The notes under the pieces: model-generated
Told to the model about the DNA's origin: nothing
What the model saw: the letters and a program-made list of their open reading frames with translations, nothing else
Database searches by the model: none
Part shown: positions 1,628 to 47,008 of the stretch, piece after piece
Layout of the letters: each line of letters begins with the position of its first letter
Numbering within the stretch: the stretch's first letter is position 1
Assembly (NCBI GenBank): GCA_029948255.1
Contig: JALIZF010001912.1
Span: forward strand, 1,178,001-1,242,000
Reading direction: 5' to 3'
Origin: Telmatactis stephensoni
Taxonomy: Eukaryota; Cnidaria; Anthozoa; Actiniaria; Isophelliidae
Length of the DNA: 64,000 nucleotides
Translations under genes and position numbers: made by a program

Positions 1628-3920
1628 CACAGGCAGCCCAGCCACTTCTCCTGACGAAGTTTATTTTAATAATTTATTTACTATTTTATTGATACGCTTT
1701 GATACGCTAAAAAGACAAAAAAATGCGCGCGCTTGTTTTAATTTGCTTGGCGCGCGCGCTCTTGTTATGCATGGGTTTCCTGTGGTAATATCCTCCCGAT
1801 ATCCCACGGGACGAGCGCGCGCTTGTTGTGAATGGGTTTCCTGTGGCGATCCCGCGGGACAAAGCTACTTTGTGAGAAGGTATGAAACACGGTCACGTGA
1901 CAAAATACATTTTCGCTTGTATTTCACCAGCTAAGAAAGAAAATATCGATTTTTCTTCGAATATGTAAACAAAGTATTTATGTCCAAACAACTTAAAAGT
2001 TTGAGCGCTCAAAGTTTGTTATTTGACGAGAATTTCACCTGGAAAGCTTTGACTCGCGATGGACGTATGTGTGCCCCAGGTTGATGGACACAACGCTCGG
2101 GATTTTTCACTCGTTGAGTTGTCGAGGAATGTCGGATAGCTATCGCAAGTACACGAGAGTTTTCCGAAATGAAACCGAAATGAATGAAAAACGGTTGTGA
2201 ACAAGTTTACTTGAAACGGTGCTGGTTTTGGACTACAAAATCACTTCTTGGAATAAGCTTTTGAAAATGTCAAAAGCTTTTATGCTCATACAAGACTTCG
2301 AAACAATCCTTCACTGTAAATGAGCGGACCTTCAAGGTATTTGAGATAGTTTTATGAGTGATTTTTTGAAGTTTTGTTGTGTCGCTCACAGCTTCATGTA
2401 CAATGCTACCAGTTTTGGACTGCAAAAATTACTTTTTTGGGGTGTTTTAGGACGCTTCATAAGTTTTTATGTTCACATAAGATTTCGAAACAATTATTTA
2501 TATGAAATGAGCTGATTTTCAAAATTATTAAGCTAATGTTAGGCATAAAATTTTGATTTTTTGTTGTGCATTTTGACACTCGGTCGGTGGTTCATTCTGA
2601 CTCATAGAGAACAAAAACTTACTCCAGCTGAGAATTTGCAAAAAATATAGTCCGGATGTGACGCAGGCTACTGAATCTGGAATGAGAAGATATTGGGTTT
2701 ACAAGAATATTAAAAGAGTAAAGGAACCATCCTCATTGATATGGGCTGAAATAGTAGATGTGTATACACTGCCGAAGGCCAGATAAATCGATCAACAAAA
2801 GCCCAACAAATTCAATCCCAAGAAAACAAAAAAGACATAACAGTTTCAAAACTTACTTTATTTCTGTTTATAACTGAACTGCTTACAATCTTCTTGTATA
2901 TATTTTTTGCAAATTCTCAGCTGGAGTAAGTTTTTGTTCTCTATGAGTCAGAATGAACCACCGACCGAGTGTCAAAATGCACAACAAAAAATCAAAATTT
3001 TATGCCTAACATTAGCTTAATAATTTTGAAAATCAGCTCATTTCATATAAATAATTGTTTCGAAATCTTATGTGAACATAAAAACTTATGAAGCGTCCTA
3101 AAACACCCCAAAAAAGTAATTTTTGCAGTCCAAAACTGGTAGCATTGTACATGAAGCTGTGAGCGACACAACAAAACTTCAAAAAATCACTCATAAAACT
3201 ATCTCAAATACCTTGAAGGTCCGCTCATTTACAGTGAAGAATTGTTTCGAAGTCTTGTATGAGCATAAAAGCTTTTGACATTTTCAAAAGCTTATTCCAA
3301 GAAGTGATTTTGTAGTCCAAAACCAGCACCGTTTCAAGTAAACTTGTTCACAACCGTTTTTCATTCATTTCGGTTTCATTTCGGAAAACTCTCGTGTACT
3401 TGCGATAGCTATCCGACATTCCTCGACAACTCAACGAGTGAAAAATCCCGAGCGTTGTGTCCATCAACCTGGGGCACACATACGTCCATCGCGAGTCAAA
3501 GCTTTCCAGGTGAAATTCTCGTCAAATAACAAACTTTGAGCGCTCAAACTTTTAAGTTGTTTGGACATAAATACTTTGTTTACATATTCGAAGAAAAATC
3601 GATATTTTCTTTCTTAGCTGGTGAAATACAAGCGAAAATGTATTTTGTCACGTGACCGTGTTTCATACCTTCTCACAAAGTAGCTTTGTCCCGCGGGATC
3701 GCCACAGGAAACCCATTCACAACAAGCGCGCGCTCGTCCCGTGGGATATCGGGAGGATATTACCACAGGAAACCCATGCATAACAAGAGCGCGCGCGCCA
3801 AGCAAATTAAAACAAGCGCGCGCATTTTTTTGTCTTTTTAGCGTATCAAAGCGTATCAATAAAATAGTAAATAAATTATTAAAATAAACTTCGTCAGGAG
3901 AAGTGGCTGGGCTGCCTGTG
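1628..3920. mobile_element. Giant inverted repeat with 1,022-bp arms
   Basis: The left arm (1628-2649) and right arm (2899-3920) are exact reverse complements over the parts I compared, with one difference seen near 2310/3240. Each arm is 1,022 bp, so there is no net length difference between them. The spacer of 249 bp (2650-2898) is not palindromic. This is the structure of a foldback or long-TIR transposon that duplicated recently. A hairpin artefact of library preparation or assembly is the alternative. The open frames inside the arms (for example 2019-2204 and its mirror at 3344-3529) are identical because of the duplication and resemble no protein I know. The right arm abuts a CAAGAGACC-type end at 3930-4001. 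Confidence 0.85.
2601..2786 (+). pseudogene. Exon-like coding fragment at the palindrome centre
   Basis: An open frame runs from just after a TGA (2598-2600) to a TAA at 2784-2786. It crosses out of the left arm and reads through most of the unique spacer. The part from 2628 follows a plausible splice acceptor (ACTTACTCCAG) and has protein-like composition, including RYWVYKNIKRVKEPSSLIWA. I do not recognise the family. It may be a host exon captured between the arms, or a piece of the element's own gene. The lack of an early ATG argues that it is an internal or terminal exon rather than a free-standing gene. Confidence 0.35.
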
Positions 3921-12715: not shown

Positions 12716-13852
12716 CTAAATCCTGGTATCTTCAACTATGTGAGATCCATCATCTTCGAGCGATTTTCGCCCCTGACTCATCATCATGGCATTGGAATCG
12801 GCATTGGAATCACCATTGGACGCGGGCTTGACTTCGTTGTCCGGCTTTTTCAGTGTAGACTTGTGGGTGGATCGTGATCTGAAGTAACTGCCTTGGTAGG
12901 CCATGAATTGCCTGTGTCTGCAGCAACATATGAGCATCAGGAGATATCGCTTGTATTCTTTGCGAAACTGGTGCGTTAGAATTCCATAGACCATAGGGTT
13001 TAGACAGCTATGTATGTACAGTAGGACGGAGGAATATACCAAAATTGTACTCATTCTTTCTGGGTCGTCGTTATCTCCAAAAAAAAACATGAAACCCACA
13101 ATCTCATGCGGTAGCATACAAACCGCAAAAAGAATGACAATGACTGCCACTGTTTTGATAATTTGGATGTTTTCTCGTCTTGTAGACTGCGAGACTGACT
13201 GCCCGTACTTATTGTCCAAAAGCAGGGTACCAGGAATCTTGCGATGGCGCAAACAGCGGACAATTTGGATATAGGCCACGGTTATGATGCAGAGTGGGAT
13301 CAAATACTGCAAAAGGAACATTACTACAGTAAAAGCCTGAGCGCTCAAGTGGCTCCATTTTTCCTGGCAATTATCACTTTTTTCTGTTAATCCCGTAGTG
13401 ATCATTAAGGGTAACACAGGAATAACTGCCATGACCCACAAAAACCCTGCCCAAATAGTTGCTTGCCTTGCTGTAAAGTTGGCTTTTAGTGGCCTGAGAA
13501 CTCCATTACATCTGTGGACTGCCATGGAAGTTAATGTAAAGACACTGGCGAAAAATGTAACAGTCATCATCGGCCAGACGAATTTGCAGTAGAATAGAGA
13601 GTACTTAAAAGACCCAGTATATACGTGGGAATTAATGGCCAGACTCAATATGAGAAATGTCAAGTCAGAGATTGATAGGTTCATGATGAAAATATCACTT
13701 GCAGTTCGCGTACCAGTTTTCCCAATTACCACCAAAAGTACAAGACCATGACCAACCAGCCCCAGTATAAGACACAGCACAAATACTACAATCAGTAAAG
13801 GCCCCTCGATTCCAGCAGTATCGCCACTGTCAATGGTAGTGTTGTTCATCAT
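12716..13852 (-). CDS. Class A GPCR, peptide-receptor-like, intact
   Basis: Intronless coding frame of 378 residues with seven hydrophobic segments. N-glycosylation sites lie at N3/N4. Landmarks: Asp63 in TM2 (NLSISDL); Cys89 before TM3 and Cys162 in loop 2 for the usual disulfide; HRC at 113-115 where rhodopsin-type receptors have DRY; Trp at 134/139 in TM4; Pro186 in TM5; MLP at 246-248 in TM6 (no Trp before it); NPMVY at 285-289 in TM7. Helix 8 is followed by four clustered cysteines (possible palmitoylation) and a Ser-rich tail. The TM1 position usually occupied by Asn (GN) is His35. The loop-TM6 phrase RRENIQIIKT recurs almost exactly in the broken receptor at 45777-46933, so the two are paralogues. 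The general pattern fits invertebrate neuropeptide receptors of the galanin/allatostatin/somatostatin type; the ligand cannot be read from sequence. The 5' side may have an upstream untranslated exon, with an acceptor near 13875. Function is inferred: a plasma-membrane G-protein-coupled receptor. Confidence 0.9.
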   Translation of the reverse strand: MMNNTTIDSGDTAGIEGPLLIVVFVLCLILGLVGHGLVLLVVIGKTGTRTASDIFIMNLSISDLTFLILSLAINSHVYTGSFKYSLFYCKFVWPMMTVTFFASVFTLTSMAVHRCNGVLRPLKANFTARQATIWAGFLWVMAVIPVLPLMITTGLTEKSDNCQEKWSHLSAQAFTVVMFLLQYLIPLCIITVAYIQIVRCLRHRKIPGTLLLDNKYGQSVSQSTRRENIQIIKTVAVIVILFAVCMLPHEIVGFMFFFGDNDDPERMSTILVYSSVLLYIHSCLNPMVYGILTHQFRKEYKRYLLMLICCCRHRQFMAYQGSYFRSRSTHKSTLKKPDNEVKPASNGDSNADSNAMMMSQGRKSLEDDGSHIVEDTRI

Positions 13853-14294
13853 GAGTTCTGCAGTTTCTTTTACTCTGAGGATACAATATCACGACCAAAT
13901 TCTTCCTTTCAATAATTTAGCGTATTTTTTACAATAATGTTTTTGGTATCGACGTCTTCTAAAGTTGAAATTCCAGTTTTGACAGGTGATTTGGTTGTTA
14001 ATATAACATGAAGGACTTGGAGAATCAGTGATGTAAAAACATCGGCGTAAAGATTCTCTAGTATGTCACTTTCTAGAGCTAAATTGTCATCTTTGTATCT
14101 CTTAAATATGTAAACTTGGCCCACAATTAATTGTTGTCTTCGATTTTTCTAGAAAATAAATCGCGCGTGAGATAGTGCCCACTCGTCAGTGCCATAAGCT
14201 GTTTACTTGCCGATACAGCGGCCGTACGAGCTAACGTCAACTTCTGACTGAGATTTGACATGAGTGAGCGATGATGAGCTTGTGAAAACATAAG

Positions 14295-32188: not shown

Positions 32189-32482
32189 CTATTTATAAGC
32201 ACGATAAAAATCTGGGAGATACCTGCCAAAATAATAGGCCTGGAAAGCAAGATACAACATGGGAAACATAACGCGACAAATTTTGTCGATGAGGAGTGAT
32301 AAATCTCTTGGAAGTTGCTCAGCCTTCTTTTCATCTTTGGCCTCTGTAATGGTCTCGTTAGCGTTGGAATTTTGTTGTTTGGCGTCTTGGTTCTCGCTGT
32401 TGTCGTTCTCACTGTAAAACTTCATTTCAAATTGGCTGTCATCAAGGGATGATATCTTGCAATCATTGCAACCGAGATTGTC
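32189..32482 (-). CDS. Channel exon 8: M3-M4 linker and M4
   Basis: Acceptor GGTGGTTGCAG. Encodes an acidic, Asn/Gln-rich linker, then LIDKICRVMFPMLYLAFQAY and the C-terminus FGRYLPDFYRAYK before TAA. IDKICRVMFP is the standard entry to M4. Confidence 0.85.
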   Translation of the reverse strand, partial: DNLGCNDCKISSLDDSQFEMKFYSENDNSENQDAKQQNSNANETITEAKDEKKAEQLPRDLSLLIDKICRVMFPMLYLAFQAYYFGRYLPDFYRAYK

Positions 32483-35400
32483 CTGCAACCACCAAACACG
32501 AATACTTTAACTTTGAAAGACTATGGTACGGTACGGTACGGCACAGGGTAGGGCAGGGCGGGGTAGGGTATGGTATGGCATATATAGCATGGCATGGTGT
32601 GGTGTGGTGTGGTGTGGTATGGTATGGTATGGTATGGTATCTATTTTTAAGACATTTCCATACTAACAGTGGTGATGATGAAGTTACGATGAGTTAAGAC
32701 AACGACGATAATGATGAATATGGCATTGTTTGCTCATGAGCTGAGTTCTGAATAATTTCCATCCCTGAAGAATTGTTGTGTTGTACTGTGTTGTGTCGTG
32801 TTGTGTTGTGTTGTGTCGTGTTGTGTGGTGTGGTGTGGTGTGGTGTGGTGTGGTGTGGTGTGGTGTGGTGTGGTGTCGTGTCGTGTTGTGTTGCGTTGTG
32901 TTGTGTTGTGCGTGTACTGTTGTGTTGTGTTATGTTGTGTCGATTCTGATTTAAAACACTTACTCTCACAAATGATTTGACAGTTTTCTTTGGACGACGC
33001 TTCTTCTCTTCCTCTTCTTTTTTCGCCAAAACATCAGGACGGTAGTTATAAATCACCACACTTTCAAGCAGAGCAGCAAAAATGAAAATAAACGTCGCAA
33101 GTAGATACTCATCTGCAGCTTTGATGTAGCTCACACGTGGCATTGAACTATTGATGTACTGTGAGAGGAACACCTCCGTCAACAAGGTGGTAATACCCGA
33201 GAGCCAAGCGTTCACCAATCTCATATCGATCCATCCAGAATGGAAGGCAAGAAACAAAGGCACAGAGGATGCAAGGGAAGAAGAATTGTAGCACAAAGTA
33301 ACGGAGCCGACGTCTCACAATAACTAGGAGGGACAGAAAGCTGTAGTCGTCTAAAGGAAAAATACAAAAGAGATATTTCCTGTAAATGAACACAGCGTTT
33401 GTACGATGCAAACAACAAGAGCAAACGGGAAAATTTTTCATTTATTACCAAATCATCCCAACCCGACCGGCCCATTTTCCCCTCTCCATTTTTCTCTAGG
33501 GGGGCAGGTATATCTATTGCCAAGAAGAGGGTCAACTCACATCCAGAAACTTCGACTTTAGCGTTACCATTTTTTTTGCATGATTCTGGTGCATGTATTT
33601 TTTCCGTGCGCATTTCATCAAAGAATTCCTTAGGCTACTTATTGATTTCGACACCACACGACTTTAAATGGAACTTGTAAAGTTACAACGTACATATTTC
33701 AGGTCTCTAACGATGGTGTGATATCCCAGGACATTCATTACCTCTAACTATGGTAGGATATCCTGCAAGATCCTTTGTGTCCTTAACCATTGTACGATAT
33801 CTCTCAACATATCAGTAATTTCCCTAACAATGGTACCATACCCGCAACAGACTAGCCTCCTCCACAGGCAACTCCTTTTATCTCTTGGGCTTTTGTCCCC
33901 CTCTCCCTCTCCTCATTTACCACAGGAACTCCAATAGAAAGGAGTAGCCTGCGGAGGAGGCTAGCAACAGACATGTATTTAATGATATGTCCTTGACCAT
34001 GGTACGATATTCCGCAACATATTTTATGTCCTCAACCATATGGTACGATACCCCGCATTATATTTAATAATGTGCTTGACCGTGGTACAATATCACCTCA
34101 ACATATTTAACATCATTAACCATTGTACGATATCAGTAATGTCCCTAACAATGACACGTTATTCCGCAACATATTTATGTCATTAACCATGGTACGGTAT
34201 CCCACAACATTTTTTAATGCGGCTTTAACCATGGTTCTTACCAGTTCCATCAAAATGGATCTCTTCGATTTTATCGATCTTCTTAACCACATAGGCAGCT
34301 ATTTCATCAAGTAGAATGGATCCTCGCTCCCACCCAAGCCGGACCTGGTTAAACTTGTAGCTAGCTAGGACATAAATGTGAAGTGAACGTAATCATTGAT
34401 CATTTATGACGTCATCAATATGGCCGACAGAGTTTCAGAGTTATACGTAATACATTATTCAGTTAAAGAACTAGAGTACAAACACTAAAGGCGTGCAACA
34501 TAAATAGTACTGATTAGTGCTATTTTATGCTAATTCGATTGTTTTCTATTGTTTAATTAGTGCTATTTAGTGTTGCGCAGGCAGCTTAAATTCAGTCAAA
34601 GCCTCGTTTTGAACCCATTTGTCTAATTTCAGCGGGTTACAATTCCAGACTAAAACATTTTTTCATAGTAAACGCCAAAACGTGCTATGCTCTTTATGAC
34701 GTCATCAACATGGCGGACTAAGGTGTCTATTTATGACGTCATCAACATGGCGGACTAAGGTGTTACTAAGATAAAAAGTACTTGAAAGACATATCGCGCG
34801 CGTTTTCAATTCCATTGGTTTATGTTGTACTTACAGGTATATATATCTATGTGCAGTTTTTGGTGGTCCATAGGATAGTAGAGAAAATTCATACGTGATA
34901 GCAATGTGATGGACAACCTAAGAATATATGACCTCGCTAAATATTATATAAGATACAATAAACAAAATACATAAATAATATTTTCGCAGCAGAATATCCA
35001 AATAGTGGTTCTTTATCTCCTGGCACCCACACTCATCGTCTTGACACAAATTCTGATTTTTGCATGCTGAGGAAGAAACAACAGAGAACCAGGCAAAAGA
35101 AACCCTCGCAGCATGGAAATGGACAACACCAAAAAAACTCACCGATGACCCATCACCCAAGTTCACCCGGCGATGACCCATCATCCGAGCTGGGACTCGA
35201 ACCCGAACCATAGCGTTTTGAATAATCATTGCATTTTAACGAAAACCCCCAACATTCTTTTGATTGTCACGCAGTTTTTTAATGGAGTATCGAGCAACGT
35301 GATCACCGTCATCATCACTTCCATGATGTTAATCACCATCTTTACATGGCCATTATCAATTATTATTATCATCGTTATCATCAACACCCGGCCTCAACAC

Positions 35401-38400
35401 CAATTATTTGTATATTCAAATCGACTTCATTTACTATCTTCATCGCTGAGCACCATCTATAGAAATCATAATGATTAATATTCATCAATAATATATTACC
35501 TAAAAGAATAATCAATCGTGCCATCTCCGTAGATTTTAACAGCTGGTGTATAAGGATCAATGGCGTAGGACCTCGCATTACTGATGTATGTGTCAGGCAG
35601 CCATATTCTACTGATATCGTTCTCTCGTAGCATGATATAAGACAGCTTGTTGCTTTGATTGAATGCAAGCCTTGGGTCATACCAGCTTTGAGTGAAATAC
35701 ACAGTAGCACGAAAGTCCTTGAAAGAATGAAAAATAACATCAGTTCTTGGAGTGATATTAAAAGGAAAAAGTTTTGAAATTGCAGTCAGAAGTGATGTAT
35801 ATCAGTTATCTTGTTTTTCTCTGACTTTTGTGGTGTTTTTACATATAGACGTTTCGATCCCTATCAAGGATCTTCTTCAATATATATAAGGATGTTATAT
35901 AAAATAGCCATCATATAACGCGCGCTCTCATTGGCCGAAGGACGCGTATACTCTAAATATGCACACAGCGCGCGCGCACTGTTTCGAATTTTTGTCAGTG
36001 TAAATGAATACTGAATTTGCTCGAAAACAACGTATTTTATGAAATAAATAGAAAACGTGCCCGCTGCGCTGAGTGCAGATTCAGAGCACTTGGGGATTGA
36101 TCAGAACGCTCGAGAAGCGATGAGAAGCACTCGGCTACGCCTTGAGTTTCTCTTAACATTCCATCGTGTTCTGATCAATCCCCGCGTGCTCTAAATCTGC
36201 ACACAGCACACGCGCGCATTTTCTATTTCTCCTTTTTCACGCGCGCAGGATTTTGAAACAGCTGATACAGTCGTTCTCTAATCTGCCATCTTGTATTGTT
36301 TATCAACATTCCAGAAATATATAGAACGCTACCGGCTATTTTTTCTTGGTTTCACCACAGGTAGCCCAAGCTCACTACTTGTGTTGATTCACTAGTCAAG
36401 AGTCTATAAAGTGACTCAGTTTTGAACATTAAATTTTTTTGCCTTAAGTCTCGATCAATAATAATTAAATATTATTCTTAATATTCAAAATAGCATGTAC
36501 AGTGTCTTCTTGCTGTTCTTGCCGTAATCCTTTGACTGAGTTCCAGCCAATTTCATTCGGATTTAGCTGATTTTCACCATGTGTGGTCGATAAAAGTCAG
36601 CTAAACCCGGGCGAAATTGGCAGAAACTCATTCAGGGTATTCTCAAGAACAGCAAGAAGGCACTGTGAGTATTTTATTGAATTTTATTGAGAATTATGGC
36701 CAAAAAAATCTAATTTTCAGAAGTCATGATCGCACTATAATCTTTAGTAAATCAACACAAATAATGAGCTTGGGCTACCTGTGGTTTTCATCTCAGTTGT
36801 TTTCTGAAATCTTATTAAACTGATTGCCCCATTTCTCATACATATACTAGTATGAATTCCCAAGCGAAGACCAAAACTCCCTTCGTCCCCTCACCCTATC
36901 AGTGCATGGTTTGGTCCATATATCAAATACTTTCTCTATCATTTCAGTCTATGTATTTGTTGTCTTTTCAACTTACCATATTTTCCTCTGAAATATGACT
37001 TATCGATGAGACGTCAAAACGTAATATGATGTCCACTGGCTTGACTGTAAAAACAAAATACATAAACTAAAAGAAATACACTCGAACCCCTCTGACTCGA
37101 ACCCTTTCAACTCGAAAACCCCACTATCTCGAACACTAACCCATTTCCCATTAAGTCATTTTTTCAGTCAATTACTATGAGTTACTATCGATCACTTCCC
37201 AATCCTATAACCAATTTCCTGAAAAGAAGTACAGTGGAGCCTCCCTGTGGAACAGCCTCCCCGCAGAGCTACGTACTATTAACTCTCTGGGAGTGTTTAA
37301 AAAGAACGTAAAAAGACATTTTACTTCACTGGGCTCTAGCACGGCAATCATGTAAACCAGTTTTCGTTTTTATTTTTTTTTGTATTTTACTGATGAGTTT
37401 ACCGTGTTGAAATAAAGTATCTATCTATCTATTTAGCGTCAACTGGGAGTTCGAGTTAGCGGGGTTATACTGTATTTCAAATGAACCACCCTTGGTATAA
37501 ACTGGTGGTCTTTTCTCTGAATGGGGGTGGTCGCAAGGGAAGGTTAGATTGTATCAGTCGCGAACAAAACATTGGTCGTTAAATAGAGGTTGGTCGGATA
37601 ATAATAATAATAAAATCTTTATTTTAATGAGGGTATAGACATTATTACCGGTGACTCGGTAGTTTACATAATGGCCCTCAATTAAGACAATTAAGAATCC
37701 CAACCGGCAAGGAGGCGAACCAGTTGGCTATCAAGCATGGTCGAGAAACTGAATTTGAACTAGGGATAATTGCCCGGAACAAATTCAGCCTCAACTAGTG
37801 GCCAGAACAAGGACTCGAACTCGGGACCACCGGATTGCGAGACCGACACTCTGACCACTCGACCATGCTGCCTCCATAATAAAGGAAGTCACTGTCAATA
37901 TGATACAACGGGAAAGTTCTAATTATAGGCAACATATTTTGTTTTTATGTCAAGGATCAGTAACTCATTTTCCGTTATTAATTCCTACATTAACAGTTAG
38001 ACTAAACAATAAAAGTGTTTTGCAGTAGAATATTTGTGCCTCCAACTGTGCTCAACCATTGTGTTCCGTCGAGTTGTTTTTCACGTTTGTAATTAAGCCG
38101 CTTTTAGGAGTCGCACAATTGGTCTTATTTATCTATGAGTCTCATAATTCTTTTATTTCAAAGTTAACTAGTAAGCAGGCGGAAATATGGTAAATAGGAT
38201 TAATCTGAATCAAGACAATCAAGGGCCAATAATTACACAGTTCAAAGTCAAGCGATTAGAGGAAAACGTGACGACAACTCAGCGGGAGTAAGTCAATGAC
38301 GCAAATCTGATGAAAAACATAATTATCTTTTTGCTATTTTCATTGAATTTTTCCTTTTTCCTTTTTCCTTTCCTATTATCTTTTCTTTTTTTTCTTCTTC

Positions 38401-40572
38401 TTCTTCTTTTCTTTTTTTTACTCTTTATCTTTTAATTTTTTCCTAAGCTTATTACCTCACTCGTTTAGTCTCACTATTTAATAGGGCTTTGCACAGCTAA
38501 AGCAGATGAAATGAAGTTGCTAATAGTTTTACTGAAAACTGCTTAAAACGGGCTAATTATTGAATATCTATGAATTTAGAATAATGATGCACAAATACAC
38601 GCAATATAATTTTTTACAACACTTGATACTAATCTCGCGATCTGATTGGTTGATTAGAGTGTCAATAAGAGGACAGACACACTGCTGACGCGCTTCGGCG
38701 CGCTCGCTCGTTCTGTTGCCCCGTTTGAAAAGGATTTTTTAACTTTTATCTCAAATAATTGTTGTAAAAAACGAATTACTCGTGATTCCACTTGAGTTTT
38801 GAACATTTTATGACGTCAAGAGTTTGTCAATAATAAGAGGACAGACAACTCAAAACCATCTTCAATTTGTTAAATTTATTCGCAGTGATGTTAGCCTCCT
38901 ATGCAGCCGCTCCTTTGTGTCACGCGACGCGTATCCCCACGTGTGACACAAAGGAGCGGCTGCATAGGAGGCTACAGTGATGTATGCTGAAGAAAGTAAT
39001 CCAACCGGCACGATTCTTAGCAATTTTCGTTTTGGTATAAAACCACTCGTTGGAGGTTTTGTAACAATTGATATTGATTTCTTTTGTTTGTTTGCTTGTT
39101 TTTCATCGTTACAAAATGTAGCCCCTTCTACCAGATTGTTGGTCCGACGTAATGCGGATAAATTTGAAAACTAATCTTTTTTCCTCAGTTTTATTTGTCC
39201 ACACTAAAAACGATGTCAGTTTTCTCAATCAAACGAAGTAGTATGGACGCAAAGGTGTCACTGATTGGTACTAACTTTCTAATTATTCTGTAATTCATTC
39301 TATATTGGTCTCACCTCTATAATAAGGTCTTTCAAGTCTTTCATAATTCTTAAACATTTCTTTCAGTAACTGCCCCACATTTGGAGGCTCAATGTTTTCT
39401 ATCCCTGAGCTCCCACTTTGTTCTTGGCTTGTTGTTGCATTGGTGCCGTCAGTGGAATCATTCTCTGGTTCGTCTTGAGGCTCGTCATGAGCTCCGCTGT
39501 AGACAAGCAAAATGTCTAAGCGTTAGCGAGACACAAACAGCTGACACTACGTACTTAATCGAAAGGAATTTTACATTTAGTGTACCAGCCAGCCAGAACG
39601 GCCAGTTCTTAAATGGTACACATCGTTTCTTAGAACTGGTTCTGGCTAATGCTAAGAACTAACATGTATCATTTAGAACTGGACGTTCTGACCGCTGGAT
39701 TTATGAGAATGCAAAAGAGACGCGGTTTAGATAAGACACGAACTCTCCGTATAAACGACAGTTTTTCATTCGACTTGACGACAAATAAATCGTCCAGACA
39801 GACAGTCGTCTCTGACGAAAAAATCGTCAGAGTCTGAAAACCGGACGGACGCACTTTGAGATAAAAGTCGTCTGATTCTGTATGACGATTTGATCGTCTT
39901 GTGAGACTTTTCTTGAGAGATTTTTCGCTTTTGTCTTTTTAATTTTCGTCTTAAGGGACAAATCGTCGTCAAAACCACGAATTGAATTTGAATTCACAGA
40001 GCAAATTGTCAGACATCTTGTCCGTACGAACGACTTGACTGTCTTCTAGTGTGAAAACGGCTAATTACTGATATCAAGCTCGACAAAATAAGAGATGAAC
40101 TTATGTATTAAACGGTGCATGATTTCATAAAAGGGTAAAATATCTGTAAATCTTTGGAAAACAGATTAACTACTCGCAGAAGTTGCGAAGGTTTTTAAAA
40201 CGTGCAGGTCTGATGACGCAGATATAGGACAGCAGTTTTTGTTCCACACTCCAACAAGCTGTATACTATCACATTTTATTTTCACGTGGTCTCAAATGAT
40301 AGAGAAAATTAAATTGCAGCATCAAAACCAAAAACAAGAGACAACAAAAATGCAGAGTTACAGTTCTCATGCAGTTCTCATAAATGTTCGCCGAGTGAAA
40401 AACTCATGCATAGACGATGATTTGCAATCTTTTATCGTAGGAAAATGAAGACGGTATTCACTAACCTCGCTTCATCACCGAAGCCTTCTTCGTCCTGACT
40501 ATTCACAATGAATAATATCATTATTAAAACAAGAAAAAACTGTAGCAGTTTTGAGACAGTCCTCAGAGACAT
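32189..40572 (-). CDS. Pentameric ligand-gated channel, Cys-loop lost
   Basis: Eight exons join in phase: 40466-40572, 39315-39496, 36977-37044, 35500-35717, 34835-34917, 34242-34364, 32964-33350, 32189-32482. The product is about 486 residues: signal peptide, ligand-binding domain, M1-M3, a short charged linker and M4. Family marks include WLPD near residue 158, SWYDPRLAF near 130, YSFLSLLVIVRRRLRY before M1, and PRVSYIKAADEYL after M2. Exons of 68 and 83 bp match the sizes known for vertebrate GABA-A and glycine receptor genes. The two cysteines of the Cys-loop are Ser199 and Leu213. The pore entrance reads IGERLALGITTLLTEVF, with Gly-Glu in place of the anion-type Pro-Ala. Exon 7 needs one base removed from a CCC at 33196-33198 (GGG in the coding sense) to stay open, so the gene is either broken or mis-sequenced there. 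It acts at the plasma membrane; ligand unknown. Confidence 0.85.
32523..32642. repeat. GGTAC/GGTAT/GGTGT pentamer repeats in intron 7
   Basis: Pentanucleotide units shift from GGTAC to GGTAT and GGTGT. Confidence 0.9.
32776..32941. repeat. TGTGG/TGTGT pentamer repeats in intron 7
   Basis: About 165 bp of TGTGG, TGTGT and TCGTG pentamers. The His/Thr/Asn-rich reading frame through it is intronic, beyond the exon 7 donor. Confidence 0.9.
32964..33350 (-). CDS. Channel exon 7: M1, M2, M3 with one-base shift
   Basis: Acceptor TTTCCTTTAG, donor GTAAGT. Encodes M1 (YFVLQFFFPCILCAFVSCLP), M2 and M3 (LLATFIFIFAALLESVVIY), then a basic stretch. Within M2, at the residue after Leu3', a run of three G (33196-33198 on plus as CCC) shifts the frame; two G would restore LALGITTLL. 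Confidence 0.85.
33690..34232. repeat. Minisatellite in intron 6
   Basis: Ten or so diverged units of about 40-48 bp around TAACCATGGTACGATATCCC and GCAACATATTTAATGTC. Interrupted at 33853-33963 by a MITE. It ends about 10 bp from the exon 6 donor. Confidence 0.75.
33853..33963. mobile_element. MITE with TAGCCTCC ends and exact 9-bp TSD
   Basis: TAGCCTCCTCCACAGGC to GCCTGCGGAGGAGGCTA, flanked by GCAACAGAC on both sides (33844-33852 and 33964-33972). The target is inside a minisatellite unit. Confidence 0.9.
34242..34364 (-). CDS. Channel exon 6: loop B to loop C
   Basis: Acceptor TATGTCCTAG, donor GTAAGA. Encodes SYKFNQVRLGWERGSILLDE then IAAYVVKKIDKIEEIHFDGT. The loop C region has no vicinal cysteine pair, so it is not an acetylcholine alpha-type subunit. 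Phase fits both neighbours (two bases in, one base out). Confidence 0.8.
34405..34762 (+). promoter_or_regulatory. Three CRE motifs with YY1-like words, intron 5
   Basis: TGACGTCA at 34407-34414, 34697-34704 and 34734-34741, each followed by TCAA(T/C)ATGGC. The last two are in an exact 37-bp tandem duplication. CREB-type control of the channel gene is possible; a repeat origin is equally possible given the copy at 7780. Confidence 0.45.
34835..34917 (-). CDS. Channel exon 5 (83 bp): Cys-loop without cysteines
   Basis: Acceptor ATATTCTTAG, donor GTAAGT. Encodes LSITLLSRMNFLYYPMDHQK then LHIDIYT. The F-x-Y-P-M-D core of the Cys-loop is intact, but the first cysteine position is Ser199 and the second is Leu213, 14 residues apart as in the standard loop. 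Length is exactly 83 bp, which argues the exon is correctly delimited. Confidence 0.85.
35500..35717 (-). CDS. Channel exon 4: loop A and core of binding domain
   Basis: Acceptor TTCTTTCAAG, donor GTAATA. Encodes DFRATVYFTQSWYDPRLAFN and the WLPDTYISNAR loop A motif, ending in a strand with DGTIDYSF. 218 bp, close to the 221-224 bp of vertebrate genes. Confidence 0.9.
35845..35884 (-). ncRNA. Degenerate hammerhead-ribozyme-like motif
   Basis: Minus strand reads TTGAAGAAGATCC, a short loop, GGGATCGAAAC then GTC. GATCC/GGATC forms the stem between the CUGANGA-like and GAAA core parts. The first core base is T rather than C, so activity is unlikely. Such motifs mark Penelope-like retroelement remnants. 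Confidence 0.35.
35925..36240. mobile_element. CGCGCGCG-ended MITE in intron 3
   Basis: AACGCGCGCTCTCATTGGCC at the left and CACGCGCGCATTTTC at the right. The inner inverted repeat GGGATTGATCAGAACGC/GTTCTGATCAATCCC surrounds GCACTCGGCTACGCCTTGAG, the same phrase as the elements at 7.6 and 21.1 kb. Confidence 0.65.
36977..37044 (-). CDS. Channel exon 3 (68 bp)
   Basis: Between acceptor TTTTTACAG and donor GTAAGT. Encodes VKPVDIILRFDVSSISHISE then ENM, equivalent to the GABA/glycine receptor segment VDVxxxxxVxSIxxxSExNM. Exactly 68 bp, as in vertebrate homologues. Confidence 0.9.
37075..37475. mobile_element. Remnant of a CGAACTCGA-rich DNA element
   Basis: CTCGAACCCCTCTGACTCGA at the left and its diverged inverse GAGTTCGAGTTAGCGGGG with TTATACTGTA at the right. 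This resembles ends of pogo/Tigger-type elements. A LINE fragment is inserted in the middle. It lies just beyond the exon 3 acceptor, inside intron 2. Confidence 0.5.
37230..37432 (+). pseudogene. 5'-truncated LINE: C-terminus of reverse transcriptase ORF
   Basis: One frame reads YSGASLWNSLPAELRTINSL then GVFKKNVKRHF, ending in TAA after GSSTAIM. The W-N-x-LP-x-x-LR ... SL-x-x-FK pattern is the standard C-terminal end of CR1/L2/Jockey-type polyproteins. A short 3' UTR follows and ends AATAAAG then (TATC)n. Only the last 40 or so codons are present, so the copy is dead on arrival, as is usual for LINE insertions. Confidence 0.75.
37598..37876 (-). mobile_element. tRNA-derived SINE in intron 2
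   Basis: Minus strand: A box TGGTCGAGTGG (37855-37865), B box GAGTTCGAGTCC (37811-37822), a tRNA-unrelated body, then AAAATAAAGATTTTA and a (TTA)n tail at 37600-37611. Confidence 0.8.
38640..38891. repeat. MITE fragment with repeated AGAGGACAGACA
   Basis: GTCAATAAGAGGACAGACA near 38669 and TCAATAATAAGAGGACAGAC near 38827, with a GCGCGC-rich inverted core between. A partial element related to the CGCGCG-ended family. Confidence 0.4.
38892..38974. mobile_element. Hairpin MITE with exact 9-bp TSD
   Basis: TAGCCTCCTATGCAGCCGCT with its near-perfect inverse AGCGGCTGCATAGGAGGCTA, flanked by CAGTGATGT on both sides (38883-38891, 38975-38983). 83 bp long, essentially all palindrome. Confidence 0.9.
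39315..39496 (-). CDS. Channel exon 2: acidic N-terminus and first helix
   Basis: Follows acceptor TTGTCTACAG. Encodes an acidic, Gln/Ser-rich segment (QDEPENDSTDG), then LLKEMFKNYERLERPYYRG, the amphipathic helix that begins the ligand-binding domain in this family. Donor GTGAGA. Confidence 0.85.
39520..40050. repeat. GACGAT/ATCGTC-rich palindromic repeat, intron 1
   Basis: Several short inverted motifs (CTCTGACGA-AAAAA-TCGTCAGAG near 39810; TCTTAGAACTGG and its inverse) cluster here. It looks like an old MITE, but the ends are not clear. Confidence 0.35.
40466..40572 (-). CDS. Channel exon 1: start and signal peptide
   Basis: ATG at 40570-40572. Encodes MSLRTVSKLLQFFLVLIMIL then FIVNSQ and an acidic stretch, a typical cleavable signal peptide. 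Ends AG before the donor GTTAGT, leaving two bases of a codon. Confidence 0.85.
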
Positions 40573-45776: not shown

Positions 45777-46933
45777 TTAACCATTTAACAAACACACTTC
45801 CCCTTGTTTCTGGTTATGTTTGGTGATATCAGTCTCTACCGTTTCGATAAAACTTTCATGGTCATTTTGTTTAGCAGAACCTTTCTTCCACTTGAAGGAA
45901 GTTGCTTTAATTTCTACCAGCTCAAGTCCATCGCTAGTCCTCTCACTAGTAGTAATATCCTCCGCGTGATTTAAAAAAAGTCTGCAACAGAAGAGATTGA
46001 TAAAAAATCTCTTGTAGTCCTGACCAAAGTTCTTCATAAACGTTCCATAGATAATTGGATTGACGCAGCTGTGGGCAATGGTCAAAATAGCGGTTAATTT
46101 GTAAAAGTTCACGGTGAGGATGTCTTTGTGCCCAAACACTATCATAAGCCGAGTTATACGATAAGGCAGCATCAAGGCGAAGAAGAGGACGCTGATGATC
46201 ACTAAAGTCTTTATAACTTCAATGTTTTCTCTTCTGTTCGTGACATCACGGATATTTCCACTCGAGTCTGCGGCAAACCTCGGAGCTTGAGTCTTAAGCA
46301 GCGCAATGGCAATTTTGATGTAGGATATTACCATGAGACAGAACGGTATAGCAAAGCGCACGACAAACAAAGTCAGGGTGTATGTCCTTTGCTGGGAAAG
46401 CGACTGCCATCGAATGAGGCATCTTTGACGAAACGGCTTCGCAAAATATATTTTAGGAATCGAGAGAGCAATACTTAAGACCCAAATGACAACGACAATG
46501 ACAGTGGCGTGCTTGATGGTACATTCTTGACGAAATGGTTGGGTTATCACCAAACAACGGACCACAGCCATCGCCTGTCAGTGTATAGACTATACCACCG
46601 AGGGCCACTGTGATGATCGGTGCCGTGCATTTGCAGACAAACATTGTTGGTTGAAAGTTAGCCAGGTGAATGTACATTGAGAACTGGGATGAAAATCAGC
46701 AGTAACATCAAATCGGATATAGCAAGGTTTAGAATGAAGATGTCATTCGCTGTTAGTCTTTTTCTTCGACGTCGACGTCTCGAGGCAATACTGAAGACCA
46801 CCAGAAAATTTCCTAGAATCCCAACGACGAGTGTTACAATGTAAATATAGAGTACGACTTGGTCTGTTATAAACTTCGGTCGTCCCTTAACGGTCCCTAG
46901 TCTTCCGAAGTATCCTCGAGTACTGTTATTCAT
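45777..46933 (-). pseudogene. Class A GPCR, paralogue, two +1 shifts
   Basis: Three frames together make one receptor. ATG at 46933 opens an N-terminus with an NNST site, TM1 (GILGNFLVVF, Asn present) and TM2 (NLAISDL). At 46677-46682 the frame must move by one base (CTCAATG). TM3 follows (Cys in MFVCKCT) until 46571, where a second one-base move (GGCGATG) is needed to enter AVVRCLVI, TM4-TM7, VNPIIYG and a long tail ending in a stop at 45777. Removing one base at each site gives about 384 residues, against 378 in the GPCR at 12716. RRENIEVIKT before TM6 matches that receptor's RRENIQIIKT. Both shifts are extra bases in two-base runs (AA, GG). Either this is a recent pseudogene or the assembly has errors. 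If intact it would be a peptide-type GPCR with VRC in place of DRY. Confidence 0.85.
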
Positions 46934-47008
46934 TGCTGACTTGTCAAACTGCTATCAAGATCAACAGTAGGTGATGAAGGAACAGAGTCGGCTGCGCACC
47001 GTGATTTA

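Follow-up and report, generated by a model that had tools for sequence, protein, structure and literature searches.

Gene content of the window and structure of the receptor gene

The window analyzed here is a 64,000-nt stretch of the Telmatactis stephensoni genome assembly (GCA_029948255.1, contig JALIZF010001912.1, positions 1,178,001 to 1,242,000, forward strand). It carries, on the minus strand at 40572-32189, a gene of the pentameric ligand-gated receptor family that has eight exons. The seven introns all follow the GT...AG rule, and their phases agree. The features of this gene, in window coordinates, are as follows:

40466..40572, minus strand: exon 1, ATG and a signal-peptide-like start; donor GTTAGT
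39315..39496, minus strand: exon 2, an acidic linker followed by the start of the ligand-binding domain; PF02931 match from residue 78
36977..37044, minus strand: exon 3, where the beta strands begin
35500..35717, minus strand: exon 4, beta strands as far as the loop
34835..34917, minus strand: exon 5, the Pro-loop (Cys-loop position), Ser199 to Leu213 with the YYPMDHQ core
34242..34364, minus strand: exon 6, the part that follows the loop, through beta9
32964..33350, minus strand: exon 7, beta10, M1, M2 and M3, with G-E-R before M2 and W295C in M1
33192..33201, minus strand: place of a frame change in M2; the assembled frame meets a stop 16 codons on
32189..32482, minus strand: exon 8, intracellular loop, M4 and stop; PF02932 positions 158-233, E 3.6e-4

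PF02931 matched residues 78-235 of the window protein (E 1.1e-30, obtained with a query that carried one residue for two at the exon 5/6 junction), and a PF02931 match in the genome scan (C31:1213496-1213717, i.e., window 35496-35717) corresponds to exon 4. PF02932 matched the four-helix membrane domain in three parts (E 0.0025, 1.1e-16 and 3.6e-4), the first two representing two reading frames of exon 7; only the second part passed the Pfam cut-off alone. The best PDB match is GABA rho-1, and the nearest solved structures, both by profile and with Actinia tenebrosa protein P0001 alone, are GABA rho-1 and beta.

A receptor loop without its two cysteines

Exon 5, which encodes the loop, was found to have exactly the 83 nt reported in the earlier note (34917-34835), with a good acceptor (TTCTTAG) and donor (GTAAGT) and with phases that fit the neighboring exons (phase 2 in and phase 1 out). 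The spliced protein reads SRMNFLYYPMDHQKL, and the residues claimed for the two cysteine positions, Ser199 and Leu213, 14 apart with YYPMDHQ between them, are right to the residue. In a strict sense, in which a Cys-loop is defined by two cysteines 14 apart, this gene does not encode a Cys-loop receptor. It does encode a Pro-loop receptor as defined by Jaiteh 2016, with YPMD at 206-209, and the proline is present in all four Cys-less proteins identified here.

Across 42 aligned receptors, both loop columns are occupied by cysteine in 38 and neither column in four, which are the window protein and three proteins from Actinia. The description of the disulfide as a near-universal mark of animal channels needs qualifying, as an inventory of Cys-less animal receptors was described in 2016 (PMC4795631). 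Within the T. stephensoni genome, 45 loci yielded 27 open-loop sites with the motif [FY]P[MLFIV][DE]xQ, the loop sites being a part of the 152 PF02931 matches; 26 of them carry both cysteines and the window gene alone has Ser and Leu, in a count that includes some presumed haplotype copies and that would miss any Cys-less loop whose motif is altered. One further site with both cysteines has a variant loop motif. The best-scoring other place in the genome that spans the loop, located with the query that had one residue for two at the exon 5/6 junction, retains the cysteines as well.

Relatives in Actinia and phylogenetic position

A protein search with the window protein found four proteins, all from Actinia tenebrosa, and the same four were found by a profile search; the query of the first protein searches had one residue for two at the exon 5/6 junction. 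Three of these proteins (P0001-P0003) are full length, have one open reading frame through M1-M4 and lack both cysteines, their loops being of the types A..L, S..L and S..L. The fourth, P0004, has no extracellular domain and hence no loop region. The earlier note had held that its reading would fall if no orthologue with the same loss existed; this outcome did not occur, the loss being shared by the three Actinia proteins. When a Cys-bearing paralogue was used as the query, 107 proteins were found in the same collection, which includes receptors of Nematostella, Exaiptasia, Porites, Acropora, Stylophora, Pocillopora, Montipora, Oculina and Xenia. No match to the Cys-less queries was found in Exaiptasia, Nematostella or the corals, either by the shared-word protein search, which can miss relatives, or by the profile search. 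Since the collection holds many cnidarian receptors that were found with the Cys-bearing paralogue, the Cys-less form looks rare, with a shared loss known in Actinia only, even though a shared-word search cannot prove absence.

A phylogenetic tree of 42 rows was constructed from the window gene, three paralogues in its own genome and 38 of 111 proteins that the searches had found; the remaining proteins (fragments, near copies and other rows) were omitted by choice, and the tree was built without nAChR, bacterial or deep Cys-less (protist and lophotrochozoan) rows. The window gene was placed within the Cys-bearing rows of GABA/glycine type. Together with the three Actinia proteins it forms one clade (support 100/100), in which its nearest relative is P0001 (56% identity over 398 columns). 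This four-member clade sits inside a 23-row clade (100/98) that is cnidarian in every row with a named organism (lgn5 and lgn7 being the rows without an organism name) and whose other 19 rows all carry both cysteines. The Cys-bearing relatives from the same genome are genes A and B, on contigs C228/C425, and gene C, on C63/C479, each present as two presumed haplotype copies. Gene B groups with Exaiptasia in the 42-row tree (99/95), and gene C was recovered there as the sister of the four Cys-less proteins (98/90); both are long branches, and their join was flagged by the tool as possibly false. For a second tree, five long rows, gene C among them, and the columns of the loop were removed. The four proteins again form a clade (100/100) within the same group (21 rows, 100/99), here as sister to the other 17 rows of the group rather than nested among them. 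The stem of the four-member clade is long in both trees (1.62 in the 42-row tree and 2.09 in the second tree).

The sister groups and the outgroups of the four proteins have the cysteines, the closest sister in the 42-row tree, gene C, being a long branch, and a single secondary loss on the branch to the four is the likely and simplest reading of these trees. For the lineage, the suggestion that the subunit assembles or gates without the disulfide finds support in the three full-length Cys-less Actinia proteins and the 100/100 clade, and the lineage as a whole likely works without the bridge.

A frame break in M2 of the window copy

The joined exons of the window gene amount to 1462 nt, which is not a multiple of three, and a single frame change, not mentioned in the earlier note, is located inside M2 in exon 7 (33201-33192). 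The assembled frame runs into a stop 16 codons past the break, whereas the downstream frame continues uninterrupted over 175 codons as far as the gene's own stop. As assembled, the window gene does not have a single open frame through M1-M4; this copy would end inside M2 and make no channel as it stands.

An assembly error and a recent decay of the window copy are about equally likely. For an assembly error in a gene that is intact and under selection we would allow an even chance. The break appears to be either recent or not real, because the downstream frame is open over its 175 codons and has 58% identity to P0001, compared to 52% before the break, so that it is conserved as much as the upstream frame; moreover, two genes in the window are distributed over more than one frame, with each piece remaining open. 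On the other hand, the pieces of the paralogues elsewhere in the assembly have no frame break, and the window's other rhodopsin-type gene, at 12716-13888, has an uninterrupted frame of 390 aa. In a DNA search of the assembly for exon 7, the window copy was the only one found, so there is no second haplotype for comparison.

A recently broken gene, in which an older, shared cysteine loss was followed by decay in the window species, comes somewhat short of an even chance in our judgement. In addition to the frame change with its early stop and the length of 1462 nt, the window protein has changes of its own at conserved sites, namely W295C, which affects the M1 tryptophan, G277R and S219T, and 8 of 60 clade-conserved positions are changed, compared to 6/60, 5/60 and 4/58 in the Actinia proteins. 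Its terminal branch is 0.78, versus 0.44 for the nearest Actinia protein, and six copies of the three paralogues (presumed haplotypes) are without a break in the matched exon pieces. The counterpart of the M1 tryptophan, as positioned by our alignment, is described as governing the surface expression of homomers in GABA-A alpha1 and, less strongly, in rho1 (PMC6120189). Decay is opposed by the intact state of all splice sites and by the open post-break frame, whose identity to P0001 is not below that before the break. Local errors of the assembly are suggested by a GPCR gene approximately 5 kb beyond the receptor gene's 5' end, which is likewise spread across three frames, and gene C deviates at more of the conserved positions (10/55) and yet has no break in its matched pieces. 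Relaxed selection, which the earlier note had offered as an alternative, does not explain the cysteine loss itself, since the loss is common to the window gene and Actinia, but it may apply to the window copy, given the M2 frame break, W295C, G277R and the 8 changes in 60 positions.

Origin of the cysteine-less loop

Membership of the gene in the deep Cys-less clade of protists and lophotrochozoans, which would mean that the cysteines were never present, appears very improbable. The type of replacement, a polar and then a hydrophobic residue, is that described for bacterial loops, and one isolated Nematostella sequence is reported to fall in the deep clade (PMC4795631); however, the window gene was placed with high support among Cys-bearing receptors of GABA/glycine type (in a tree without deep Cys-less rows), its nearest solved structures are GABA rho and beta, it has the IG(D/E)R filter in common with Cys-bearing paralogues, and in two of the three Cys-bearing paralogues the loop is apparently on an exon of its own as well. 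Restoration of the cysteines by a different exon or splice form has almost no credibility: while the loop is on a small, in principle exchangeable exon, a search of the 8.4 kb that the gene spans found on its coding strand neither the cysteine-containing replacement exon that the earlier note had named as a refutation nor any open Pro-loop motif besides exon 5 or proline-bearing C-x13-C stretch, skipping of exon 5 would break the frame because 83 nt is not a multiple of three, and the Actinia proteins also lack the cysteines. Throughout the window there are 61 C-x13-C stretches, three of which have the proline in place, one of them within the gene span on the opposite strand.

Pore filter before M2

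Directly before M2, each of the 22 rows that make up the inner clade (94/81 in the 42-row tree) has the motif G-[D/E]-R, the 23rd row having N-T-R. The window protein has G-E-R and the three Actinia proteins have G-D-R, and none of them has the anion filter P-A-R. The GABA/glycine rows outside the clade mostly carry P-A-R or a similar neutral triplet; Asp at -1' occurs in three outside rows (two rotifers and Stomoxys), and the Stomoxys row, named 'GABA receptor alpha-like', combines A-D-R with both cysteines and is located outside the cnidarian clade. Acidic residues at -1' are a mark of cation channels, and the pore of the window clade is predicted, from the filter alone, to pass cations. Because the Cys-bearing members have the same filter, the pore charge likely changed before the cysteines were lost. 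A Nematostella clade with Asp at -1' has been described by its authors as 'strongly suggested' to form cation channels (PMC13335744). Among the octocoral proteins, Xenia P0020 and P0021 also have a G-E-R filter, but with Tyr for Trp at the end of M1 (FYIDPKDIGER).

How a disulfide-free loop could hold and couple

In the four Cys-less proteins, the first cysteine is replaced by Ser or Ala and the second by Leu (4/4). For bacterial Cys-less loops the same pattern is described, with a polar residue first and a hydrophobic residue second (PMC4795631). Comparison with the 18 Cys-bearing rows of the inner clade identified 25 columns in which at least 94% of these rows have one residue and all four Cys-less proteins have a different one. 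Eight of these columns are at the loop and the top of M3, including six in or beside the loop (199, 203, 206, 213, 215 and 218). The changes in the neighbors of the loop are L203F, F206Y, L215I/V and E218Y/F; those at the top of M3 are I339A and W341E, and M2 has I319E or A and L323S. The Glu at 218 in the 18 Cys-bearing rows, which is Y/Y/Y/F in the four, is at the column that we take to be the loop-B Glu of GABA receptors, with a role in GABA binding; this GABA-binding residue is missing from the four proteins. The M2-M3 tyrosine, by comparison, is retained as VSY in 4/4. In GABA-A receptors (via the beta subunits) and glycine receptors, a bond from this tyrosine to the loop backbone is reported to be needed for efficient gating (PMC13232294). 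Coupling through the tyrosine would need no cysteine, because its partner is a backbone NH of the loop.

Taking into consideration the loop residues, the trees and the filter, we find it fairly probable that the window gene represents a GABA/glycine-type subunit with Ser199 and Leu213 that belongs to one clade with three Actinia receptors, in which the disulfide was likely lost once, leucine packing likely acts in its stead and the pore is predicted to be of the cation type. On this reading, the pore charge probably changed before the cysteines were lost, the loss falling on the branch that leads to the four. The loop would have kept its coupling through its proline and the conserved M2-M3 tyrosine (VSY), and Leu213 with its co-changed neighbors (L203F, F206Y, L215I/V and E218Y/F, with I339A and W341E) would stabilize both the loop and the place where it meets the membrane domain, the packed leucine side chain probably taking the place of the disulfide. 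The frame break and the lost M1 tryptophan of the window copy, the restriction of the known loss to Actinia and the long stem of the clade weigh against this reading. A bolder scenario is put forward tentatively, as one we would not yet bet on: in sea anemones, a GABA-type channel may have acquired a cation pore first and then dropped the disulfide, a fixed set of substitutions rebuilding the loop as well as the membrane-domain surface that it contacts. If this scenario is true, the lineage would show how nature builds an animal receptor without the disulfide, and the Cys-bearing sisters from the same genome would serve as controls.

Comparison with known receptors

The bacterial channels GLIC and ELIC work without a disulfide; they are primitively without it, whereas the window gene is found among Cys-bearing animal receptors. 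EXP-1 and GRD/LCCH3 are GABA-gated cation channels composed of GABA-type subunits with a non-PAR filter, and they are not known to have lost the Cys-loop. Secondary Cys-less animal receptors have already been published (Jaiteh, Taly and Henin 2016, PMC4795631). As in those receptors, both cysteines were lost here inside a GABA/glycine-type clade and the loop proline was retained; unlike the secondary cases described there, which come from another animal phylum, the present case comprises several genes that together form a clade and carry the cation-type filter G-[D/E]-R. That study reports one Cys-less sequence from a cnidarian, Nematostella, and places it in the deep clade and not with the secondary ones. 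Nematostella clade VIII (PMC13335744) resembles the window clade in being cnidarian, of GABA type and acidic at -1', where it has Asp, but the seven cloned receptors described there carry the disulfide. The IG(D/E)R clade and clade VIII are probably different groups, because clade VIII is called Nematostella-specific in that source and the IG(D/E)R clade includes corals and other anemones. The Cys-less channels of schistosomes (PMC9874803) also lack the loop cysteines and keep an F/YPxD core; they are described as having Glu at -2' and as not obviously related to other receptors, while the window clade has G at -2', D/E at -1' and R at 0'.

Our literature searches found no report of this secondary Cys-less anemone clade. 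As far as these searches show, a secondary Cys-less clade that includes sea anemones, has a cation-type filter and has Cys-bearing relatives in the same genome is new. The few experiments on the loop cysteines are described as finding them essential (PMC4795631), and the disulfide is reportedly needed before nicotinic alpha subunits bind bungarotoxin (PMC9318448). What replaces the disulfide where it is absent is the question on which this lineage bears, and the interface concerned is that between the extracellular and membrane domains. Because the loss occurred among Cys-bearing relatives and the co-changed residues are few and located on both sides of this interface, the question is directly testable by residue swaps between sisters. 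The lineage would also add, for cnidarians, an example in which a receptor of GABA type has a cation-type pore, at a time when the mapping of fast inhibitory and excitatory signalling in cnidarians is only now under way.

Other features of the window and the genome

Further features identified in the window are as follows:

1628..2649 and 2899..3920: inverted repeat of two 1022-nt arms, 100% complementary and 249 nt apart
12716..13888, minus strand: rhodopsin-type GPCR in a single open frame, 390 aa
29311..29808, plus strand: cysteine-rich open reading frame with CNSDLCN and no Pfam match, 2.4 kb beyond the receptor gene's 3' end
45777..46951, minus strand: rhodopsin-type GPCR with a 7tm_1 match over separate frames, either a broken gene or the result of assembly indels

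The inverted repeat may represent a recent palindromic duplication, a mobile element or a fold-back of the assembly. The CNSDLCN reading frame presumably resembles Ly6/three-finger proteins, and Ly6 proteins can modulate receptors of the pentameric ligand-gated type. The 152 PF02931 matches show that the genome has a large set of receptor exons of this superfamily, on C228, C425, C63, C479, C26, C86 and C28 among others; several of these exons are clustered, and some pairs of the receptor-bearing contigs look like two haplotypes.
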